In this document: in pieces, positions 16,798 to 19,536 of the stretch
Numbering within the stretch: the stretch's first letter is position 1
Layout: each line of letters opens with the position of its first letter
Source: Polyangiaceae bacterium
GTDB lineage: Bacteria; Myxococcota_A; Polyangia; Polyangiales; Polyangiaceae
DNA: 64,000 nt
Assembly (NCBI GenBank): GCA_025353725.1
Contig: JANXOF010000033.1
Location: 1-64,000, forward strand
Reading direction: 5' to 3'
Position numbers and translations under genes: made by a program
The notes under the pieces: model-generated
Databases searched by the model: none
Told to the model about the DNA's origin: nothing
Seen by the model: the letters and a program-made list of their open reading frames with translations, nothing else

Positions 16798-17157
16798 TTA
16801 CGCGGCCACTGCGGCGGCTCGGCGACGCTTCGGTGTGGGCCATGCGAGAACGCGCCCGTGCGGTTCTGTCACCGTATCGCACGAGGCGTCGCGTTGAACC
16901 TTCGGCTCCCCACGAGTCGCCTTCGCGGTACCGCGCGCCTCTGACGCGAGCGCGACAGCGACCGCAAGACCCGAGAGGGTCAGGCGTGCCGTATCTTCAG
17001 TTCGTTGCACGAACTCGGCGTGTGCGAGCGCCCGCAGCGCACGCCTCACTTGGTGAGCGTCTTCACGAACATGAGCTACCAAGTCGTCGAGCGTCGCGGG
17101 TGCGGCCAGCCGAGACATGCGGAGGAGGACGCGGAGAAGGGCGGTCTCTGTGTTCAT
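16798..17157 (-). CDS. Small winged-helix transcriptional regulator
   Basis: About 119 residues from the ATG at 17157 (MNTETALLRVLLRM). The first 75 residues form a winged helix: helices in LLRVLLRMSRLAAP, TLDDLVAHV and DAHQVRRALRALAHAEFV, then a wing QRTEDTARLTLS. The remainder is an Ala/Arg-rich tail. It resembles MarR/IclR-type N-terminal domains but no family is firmly assigned. ATGs at 17184 and 17166 are in frame, but the promoter and inverted repeat just upstream favour 17157, which would make the transcript nearly leaderless. Autorepression is the likely regulation. Confidence 0.75.
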   Translation of the reverse strand: MNTETALLRVLLRMSRLAAPATLDDLVAHVREDAHQVRRALRALAHAEFVQRTEDTARLTLSGLAVAVALASEARGTAKATRGEPKVQRDASCDTVTEPHGRVLAWPTPKRRRAAAVAA

Positions 17158-17164
17158 GGACGCC

Positions 17165-17193
17165 ATTATGTTCAGCACTGAACATGCGTCCAA
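17165..17193 (-). promoter_or_regulatory. Promoter with operator in its 17-bp spacer
   Basis: On the minus strand a -35 box TTGGAC (17193-17188) and a -10 box CATAAT (17170-17165) are separated by exactly 17 bp (17187-17171). The inverted repeat ATGTTCAG-TG-CTGAACAT (17185-17168) fills that spacer and runs into the -10 box. Transcription would begin about 7 nt downstream, at the ATG 17157 of the winged-helix gene. The placement is ideal for steric autorepression. Confidence 0.65.
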
Positions 17194-17277
17194 CTACTGG
17201 CGTCGATTTCCGCTTAGTCGTTGAAATAACTAAGCTTATCGCACTGCCCTTCCGTGGTCTCCGGGCGCCGCCGGCCG

Positions 17278-19536
17278 TTACATCGCCGCGCCAAGCTCGT
17301 GGAGCAAGAAAGAGAGCTCATCCGCAAGCTCATCCGCGAGTTTGCTCACCGGCTTGCCCGCGCCATGCCCTGCCTTCGCCTCGACACGAATCAGGATCGG
17401 GCGGAGGGCGTCGCGCTGCGCTTCTTGCAAGCGCGCAGTCATTTTCCGCGCGTGCATGGGGTCGACGCGCGAGTCACTCGCGGCCGTCGTAAAAAGCATC
17501 GACGGATACCGCTCACCGTCTCGGACATGGTGATACGGCGAATACGCATAAAGAAAGGCAAAATCCTCTGGCTTCGCCGGGTCTCCGTATTCAGGAATCC
17601 AAAGCTTCGCGATACGAAAGCGCGGATAGCGGATCATGTCCGTGAGAGGCACCAATGACAGTCCCGCACGAAAGAGTTCGGGCCGCTGCGTCACCACCGT
17701 GGCCACGAGCAAGCCGCCGTTCGAGCCTCCGACGACACCGAGATGATCCGAAGTCGTCCATTTTTCCGCGATGAGCGTTTCGGCACACGCAATGAAGTCG
17801 TCAAAGACATTCTGCTTCTTTTCGCGCATGCCGCCTTGGTGCCACTCCTCGCCAAGCTCGCCGCCGCCGCGCAAAATCGCGGTCACCCAGACCGCGCCAC
17901 GACGGACGCTTGCGAGTGCGCGCGCACTGAACGCAGGTGTCTGGTTCACGTTGAAGCCGCCGTAGCCGTACAGAATCGTGGGGTGCGTGCCGTCGCGTTT
18001 CAGCCCCTTGTTCGCGATCACAAACATCGGGACGCGCGTGCCGTCCTTCGAGGTCGCGTAAAGTCGCTCGACTTCGAGATCGCCCGCTTGAAACGACGCC
18101 CCTACGCTCTCCCAAGGCTCGAGCTTTGTGGGCTCCTTCGTCGCGGCCCGCGCGCCGAGCTCGAGGCGGTGGACTTGCGGCGGCACGACGTAAGACGCGA
18201 AGGACACGAACGCCTCTTCACCGTCCCAAGCTCCCGTGAGGCTCGCGGTACCAATCGACGGCAACGCCACGGCGCCGTGCGCTTTCCCGTCGAGTCCGAA
18301 GCGCGCCACGCGCGTCGACGCCTCATGCAAATAGGTCGCGACGATTTCGTTTTTCGCGATCAAAACCTCGCCCAGAACGTCCGCGTTTTCCGCAAGAATC
18401 TCCTTCCACGCCGAGCGCTCAAGCTTGTCATAGGCAATGGCGAAGAGCTTATACTTAGGAGCGCCGTCGTTCGTTTGGATATAAAGTCGGTCATTCCTCA
18501 AGGTCGGGTCGAAGACAGCGTGAACGCCCTTCGCGACGGCGACCCACGTAGCGGTCGGAAGCGAAAGATTCTTAATCCAGACTTCGCTCTTGTCCCAGCC
18601 CTTATCCGCGCGAACGGCAAGCCAGCGCCCATCCGGTGAGATAAAAACCGTCGGCGTCTCGGTATTTTCGCGGCCGTCTCCGAAGACCACCGTGTCGAGC
18701 TTCGGATCCTGACCGAGCACGTGAAAAAAGATCTTCGAACCGTACTTTTCGTCGCCCGGCGGCACCGTGCCCGCGGCGGGGTAGCGCGAGTAATAGAAGG
18801 CTTTCCCGTCCGGTAGCCACGCTACGGATGCATGCCGCGTGTAGGGAATCGCGTCCGGTAAGTCCTTTCCACTCGCAACGTCGCGAACCAACAGCGTGCT
18901 CTCCTCGGACCCTGACTCGCTGCGCCCCCAGGCGATGCGCGCACCGTCGCGTGAAGGAAACCACCAGTCGAGGGCCGTCGTGCCATCCGCGGAGAGTGAA
19001 GACGCGTCGAGAATGACGCGGTCTCCGCCACGCACGCCATCTCGAACAAGAAGCGTCGGCTGATTCTGCGCGCCTTCGCGCTTCGTGTAAAAGTAGCGCC
19101 GCCCTCCGCGCTGCGTGGTGCGTGTGGTCGGCGCCGTCAACGTGCCCAGCCGCAGGAGGTCCTGCACCTCGCCGCGAAGGGCATCCCGGCCGGGCAGACG
19201 ATCCATCACCTTGCGCGTGCGCGCATTTTGCTCCTCGGTCCACGCGACGACCTCGGGCGACTCGCCATCCTCCAGCCACCGATAAGGGTCCGCGATGCGC
19301 GTTCCGTGAAGCTCTTCGACGACGCCGACCTTACGGGTCGCCGGGCTCTCACGGCCTCGGGCGCGAGGGCGACCGTCGTCATGCGATGTCGACGCGACGG
19401 TGAGCGGAGGAACAGCCGCGACCTTTGGCGGGTCGCACGCGCTGAGACCTGTTGACGCCAAAAAAAGCGCCGCGGCGCCCCGCCAACCAACACCAAAACG
19501 ACCGGCGAAAAGGCACCAAACGGGAGCACGCATCAT
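17278..19536 (-). CDS. Prolyl oligopeptidase family serine protease (S9A), lipoprotein
   Basis: A 752-residue enzyme expected to cleave proline-containing oligopeptides. An N-terminal lipobox (LASTGLSAC, Cys 34) predicts lipid anchoring outside the cytoplasm. A seven-bladed propeller domain (entered at VEELHGTRIADPYRWLEDGE) is followed by the alpha/beta-hydrolase domain with YGYGGFNVNQTP, the nucleophile elbow GVVGGSNGGLL, the catalytic Asp in SDSRVDPMHA and the catalytic His in AKAGHGAGKP. All three catalytic residues are present and the length is normal for the family. It is divergent from surE, with 44 bp between the start codons. Confidence 0.95.
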   Translation of the reverse strand: MMRAPVWCLFAGRFGVGWRGAAALFLASTGLSACDPPKVAAVPPLTVASTSHDDGRPRARGRESPATRKVGVVEELHGTRIADPYRWLEDGESPEVVAWTEEQNARTRKVMDRLPGRDALRGEVQDLLRLGTLTAPTTRTTQRGGRRYFYTKREGAQNQPTLLVRDGVRGGDRVILDASSLSADGTTALDWWFPSRDGARIAWGRSESGSEESTLLVRDVASGKDLPDAIPYTRHASVAWLPDGKAFYYSRYPAAGTVPPGDEKYGSKIFFHVLGQDPKLDTVVFGDGRENTETPTVFISPDGRWLAVRADKGWDKSEVWIKNLSLPTATWVAVAKGVHAVFDPTLRNDRLYIQTNDGAPKYKLFAIAYDKLERSAWKEILAENADVLGEVLIAKNEIVATYLHEASTRVARFGLDGKAHGAVALPSIGTASLTGAWDGEEAFVSFASYVVPPQVHRLELGARAATKEPTKLEPWESVGASFQAGDLEVERLYATSKDGTRVPMFVIANKGLKRDGTHPTILYGYGGFNVNQTPAFSARALASVRRGAVWVTAILRGGGELGEEWHQGGMREKKQNVFDDFIACAETLIAEKWTTSDHLGVVGGSNGGLLVATVVTQRPELFRAGLSLVPLTDMIRYPRFRIAKLWIPEYGDPAKPEDFAFLYAYSPYHHVRDGERYPSMLFTTAASDSRVDPMHARKMTARLQEAQRDALRPILIRVEAKAGHGAGKPVSKLADELADELSFLLHELGAAM

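Follow-up and report, generated by a model that had tools for sequence, protein, structure and literature searches.

The LexA box of Myxococcus xanthus has been defined experimentally as CTRHAMRYBYGTTCAGS, and LexA binding at lexA and recA2 was shown by gel shift; a recN box with two changes is not bound (PMC9705874). LexA directly represses only five genes in this species, most damage-induced genes being under other, partly unknown routes, and pafBC is also present (PMC9705874). The mycobacterial PafBC motif is tTGTCRgtg-8 nt-TannnT (PMC5656591). For leaderless genes with a TANNNT element adjoining the start, there is experimental precedent in Deinococcus (PMC12340547). We analysed a promoter of a Polyangiaceae bacterium against this background. 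It lies in a window (the whole stretch of DNA analysed, 64,000 nucleotides) which is part of contig 68 of a 6.6-Mb genome.

Layout of the promoter

The gene encodes a 119-aa winged-helix protein (16798–17157, minus strand, stop codon included), and its ATG is at 17157–17155. Read on the minus strand, the whole promoter is TTGGAC GCATGTTCAGTGCTGAA CATAAT GGCGTCC ATG. The −35 element TTGGAC (17188–17193) is followed by a 17-nt spacer (17187–17171) and the −10 element CATAAT (17165–17170), all on the minus strand; the −10 element ends 7 nt before the ATG, and a leaderless or near-leaderless mRNA is predicted. Matched across the upstream regions of homologues, the conserved register of the −35 element is TGGACG (17187–17192). 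The palindrome ATGTTCAG-TG-CTGAACAT (17185–17168) has 8-bp arms, and all but its last three bases lie in the spacer, the rest being in the −10 element. Thus the exact 17-bp spacing, the inverted repeat filling the spacer and entering the −10 box, and the start codon 7 nt beyond it, all described in the first-pass annotation, are correct readings of the sequence. The second arm, CTGAAC (17170–17175, minus strand), reaches the first base of CATAAT and is invariant within the genus.

The same stretch contains a putative LexA (SOS) box, TTGGAC-GCAT-GTTCAG (17178–17193, minus strand), recognised by its resemblance to the M. xanthus consensus. The box overlaps the −35 element with its left half, and its right half belongs to the palindrome's first arm. 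Further upstream, the element AAATCGACGCC (17199–17209, minus strand) occupies columns −15 to −7 of the anchored alignment; in other genera, these columns hold CTGAACGC half-sites. The upstream neighbour is an S9 prolyl oligopeptidase gene (17278–19536, minus strand; Pfam), which marks the orthologous locus and adjoins the homologue in 14 other loci (tblastn). Between this gene and the promoter there is also an inverted repeat, GCTTAGT-N10-ACTAAGC (17212–17235).

An alternative start was considered, in which an in-frame TTG at 17193 or ATG at 17166–17164 would place the operator inside the coding region. As this upstream frame is not maintained in most orthologues, we prefer the ATG at 17157 as the start.

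The palindrome is flanked by an outer 7-bp inverted repeat, TGGACGC/GCGTCCA. Together, the inner and outer repeats could form a hairpin acting as a terminator or in translational control, and a 14-bp stem with a 4-nt bulge that reaches the start region can indeed be drawn. The folding energy, however, is unexceptional (z −1.17; matched by 25 of 200 shuffles), a U-run is absent, the arms vary by loss and not by compensation, and the inferred start site places the repeat upstream of the transcript. We consider such an RNA element highly improbable.

Conservation of the promoter module

All 11 other genomes of the genus, whose members are relatives of Labilithrix (Myxococcota), contain a homologue of the gene (12 genomes including the present one). 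A profile search finds homologues in 135 of 183 genomes from the order, and strong scores also come from one further family of the class. With a closer profile, the closest named relatives containing the gene are metagenome-assembled genomes of Labilithrix sp. (Myxococcota); named genomes searched with the single protein or a broad profile gave no matches. More distant winged-helix paralogues without the promoter module occur in the same genomes (L104, L108–L111), several of them without an Ala-Ala end.

Shuffles of the window yield about 1.3 palindromes with up to three mismatches per window, so the match in the window alone is weak evidence. Across the genus, GTTCAG-NN-CTGAAC is present exactly once per genome in 12 of 12 genomes, always at the winged-helix gene, which is more than chance. 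The genome search proposed earlier to find a regulon with the perfect palindrome thus returned a single site per genome, and the pattern reveals no regulon.

We read the regions upstream of 85 homologues; the homologues are related and not independent, and start codons and control ORFs were chosen mechanically. The anchor [CT]T[GA][GT]AC is matched in full in 60 of the 85 regions, most others being one base off; in 53 of these 60 full matches, the hexamer begins at a distance of 36–38 nt from the start codon. Across the order, which is one of soil myxobacteria, the consensus of the module is an A-rich or CTGAACGC element, AAA[C/T]TGGAC, N4, GTTCAGT, about 8 free bases, TAnnnT, 6–7 nt and ATG. 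A register of TGGACn, about 18 bp and a TAnnnT (variants TAAGCT, TAAGGT, TACAGT and TAGGGT) that stops 6–7 nt short of the ATG gives the better promoter in the relatives. Of the 85 homologues, 24 have a TAnnnT with 7 nt between it and the start codon, and 9 have one with 6 nt (33/85 together); a start codon 6–9 nt after the −10 element is a conserved trait of these regions. Since TAnnnT lies 6–7 nt before the start in many homologues, a leaderless or near-leaderless start appears to be conserved across the order. The earlier proposal that the mRNA begins at or next to the ATG is consistent with this layout, which is kept in dozens of genera.

The two arms differ in their distribution: GTTCAG is common across the order, whereas CTGAAC, fixed in the genus, is present in only some other genera. 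The full GTTCAG-NN-CTGAAC is found in 20 of the 85 upstream regions, and the core CAG-NN-CTG in 35 (2 of 174 controls). In two upstream regions (L073 and L091), arrays of several direct-orientation CTGAAC half-sites precede the homologue. A second conserved element close to CTTATCGAAGTG lies about 60–75 nt before the start codon in L074, L079, L088, L089, L090 and L106. The homologue L014 (genome G008) has an early stop which shortens the protein to an end in HSA; its promoter retains the palindrome GTTCAGTGCTGAAC.

According to the first-pass annotation, this layout is that of autorepression: a dimer of the winged-helix protein would bind GTTCAG-TG-CTGAAC between the −35 and −10 elements, either alone or as a second layer over LexA. 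A symmetric operator over its own promoter, as a self-repressing regulator requires, is present. The perfect palindrome has one copy in each genome of the genus, at no other gene, as a dedicated local repressor predicts, and the enrichment of the core and the many promoters with extra CTGAAC/GTTCAG half-sites further upstream point the same way. Against this, most other genera keep the first arm but have lost or shifted the second.

The winged-helix protein and its C-terminal tail

The AlphaFold model (mean pLDDT 83) contains helices at residues 3–16, 23–30 and 34–46, a two-stranded wing and a long helix at 61–78; the winged helix is predicted confidently for residues 1–76 approximately and is followed by a low-confidence tail. 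Conservation is highest in the wing and the following helix (RLTLxGLAxAVA). The best Foldseek matches of the predicted monomer are MarR-like and of modest score (MepR, E about 5e-4, TM 0.55–0.59), and the resemblance of the predicted fold to MarR-like dimeric repressors would suit an autorepressor.

The first-pass annotation could name no family for the protein, and the searches bear this out: the winged helix falls below every family cut-off searched. For the window protein, the MarR family (PF01047/PF12802) scores 12.6 bits against a cut-off of 24.6; Pfam and NCBIfam gave no match above cut-off, and PHROGs and PADLOC gave at best E about 0.002 for models that have no cut-off. A description of the winged-helix family was not found in a literature search either; it appears to be undescribed in the databases and literature searched. 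Direct kinship with the DNA-binding domain of LexA was considered and set aside: a single hhalign comparison gave a probability of 79 and an E-value of 1.6e-5, which any winged helix may reach.

Concerning the recognition helix, entropy at the exposed positions is 2.6–3.2 bits, and there is variation within the genus. Residues 35, 36, 38, 39, 42 and 43 vary strongly even where the site is invariant. A recognition helix that is not conserved where the operator is, including within the genus, argues against the protein as the reader of its own promoter.

The protein ends in the tail RRRAAAVAA (16801–16827, minus strand), a putative ClpX-type degron with an ending similar to that of the genome's own tmRNA tag, ANDNAIAFSVAA. 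A C-terminal AA is found in 69 of 82 homologues vs 5 of 244 control ORFs, and a C-terminal A in 77 of 82 vs 31 of 244. Most exceptions to the AA ending finish in VA, the residue preceding AA is most often Arg, and the tail before the end is variable in both length and sequence. The tmRNA tags end in LAA in the relatives examined and in VAA in the present genome, and the AVAA end of the window protein matches the latter. In two relatives of the genus (L203 and L204) the tag is ANDNAIALAA, as opposed to the tag of the present genome (L205). Within the genus, it is also the window protein that has VAA as its end in place of RAA. A ClpX-type degron would be the simplest reading of the conserved Ala-Ala tail.

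The same element at lexA, recA and recN

The lexA promoter of the same genome, TTGACTCGGGTACACGTGTTCAGTAGCCTGAACAAC-GTG, contains the same two half-sites, again with 7 nt from a TAnnnT −10 element to the start. Six genomes of the genus were scanned with GNAC-N4-GTTCAGT: the pattern leads to lexA and the winged-helix gene in four of them, to lexA only in one and to neither in one, and nearly all the remaining matches sit within long open frames. Each genome has two recA paralogues, as in M. xanthus. One paralogue has CTGAAC within 250 nt in 12 of 12 genomes, the other in 0 of 8. TGGAC-N4-GTTCAG also precedes recN in one genome (G058), and in another (G035) it lies at another promoter and is followed by TAGGGT; other extra matches are mostly inside open frames.

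Sites of the LexA type with up to four mismatches are found within 60 nt upstream of 77 of 85 homologues, 36 of 50 lexA genes and 19 of 174 control ORFs; for GTTCAG on the coding strand, the numbers are 52 of 85, 31 of 50 and 4 of 174. The LexA recognition helix itself, RSTNGVNDHLRALERKG, is nearly invariant (41 of 45 matches). Because the LexA helix is so constant and that of the winged-helix protein varies where the site is fixed, LexA is the likelier reader. The half-site GTTCAG/CTGAAC corresponds to the conserved half of the myxobacterial LexA box, and TGGAC-N4-GTTCAG is built in the same way as that of M. xanthus; being common to lexA and one recA promoter, the half-site favours LexA further and weakens autorepression. 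The earlier proposal is borne out as to a conserved, operator-like element within the spacer of the promoter. Its default reading, autorepression, is not supported, and we regard it as rather unlikely.

The match to LexA is imperfect in several respects. Compared with the M. xanthus consensus, the site has two mismatches in plus-strand orientation or four in minus-strand orientation, and M. xanthus LexA failed to bind a recN box that carried two changes (PMC9705874). GTTCAG is found in only 31 of the 50 lexA promoters, and the surroundings of lexA in several further families within the order showed no GTTCAG, though the module is kept at the winged-helix gene. The CTGAAC arm and the extra upstream half-sites are left unexplained by a LexA box.

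A LexA-independent damage promoter of the PafBC type was also weighed, in which GTTCAGTG-N7-TAnnnT would be an activator site in the spacer. The mycobacterial motif is similarly placed and has a TCRGTG core (PMC5656591), and M. xanthus possesses pafBC. The motif proper, however, is found in none of the 85 homologue upstream regions, and the half-site is oppositely oriented at recA and abuts the −10 element at lexA; this explanation is improbable.

Proposed regulation

The likely explanation is a compact SOS promoter read by LexA, in front of a leaderless winged-helix gene with a degron-like end; LexA, and not the winged-helix protein itself, is most likely the reader of the palindrome site. 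This draws on what is seen in the sequences: the promoter layout, the resemblance of the box, its sharing with lexA and recA, and the conservation. From these we infer LexA binding, damage induction, the leaderless start, instability and function. LexA would bind TGGAC-N4-GTTCAG over the −35 element and the spacer, and would thereby block RNA polymerase. Upon DNA damage, LexA cleavage would allow transcription to begin at the ATG or beside it, giving a leaderless mRNA. The product, with its conserved Ala-Ala end, is a candidate ClpXP substrate; the winged-helix protein is thus probably SOS-induced and short-lived, and an SOS effector that probably binds DNA would appear in a brief pulse. Beside the −10 element, the CTGAAC arm may serve LexA as an additional half-site, or a second protein may bind there.

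A wider, two-tier SOS response in Polyangiales can be envisaged, in which LexA would control few direct genes, including the leaderless, rapidly degraded winged-helix protein, and this would relay the damage signal to further genes or to the nucleoid, perhaps binding its own CTGAAC arm. We put this forward as a speculative extension with a low probability. A Polyangiales target of the LexA type, encoding a winged-helix protein with a degron-like tail in dozens of genera, is a concrete candidate for one of the other damage-response routes mentioned above for M. xanthus. The locus also shows that, when a single genome is read, a LexA half-site can pass for a self-operator.

Comparison with known systems

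As in the LexA regulon of M. xanthus (lexA, recA2, pafBC-cyaA), the half-site GTTCAG is conserved in the promoter and is common to lexA and a recA, and LexA seems to act on regulators and not on repair genes. The differences here are the left half of the box (TGGAC, not CTRHAM), the second, inverted CTGAAC arm, and the winged-helix target, which is not among the named direct LexA targets. The protein resembles the small winged-helix proteins of the MarR, Lrs14 and archaeal AF1382 types in its predicted fold, in the C-terminal helix after the wing and in weak profile matches; it differs from them in falling below the family cut-offs, in its variable recognition helix and in a long basic tail ending in Ala-Ala. 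The AA or VA end is like that of the ssrA (tmRNA) tags and ClpX degrons (ANDNAIALAA and ANDNAIAFSVAA), whereas here the putative degron is encoded in the gene itself and Arg usually precedes AA. Finally, the promoter shares with the leaderless genes of Deinococcus (PMC12340547) a TAnnnT −10 element a few nt before the start and the absence of a Shine-Dalgarno sequence, and differs from them in that its −35-like element is conserved and its spacer contains a box of the repressor type.
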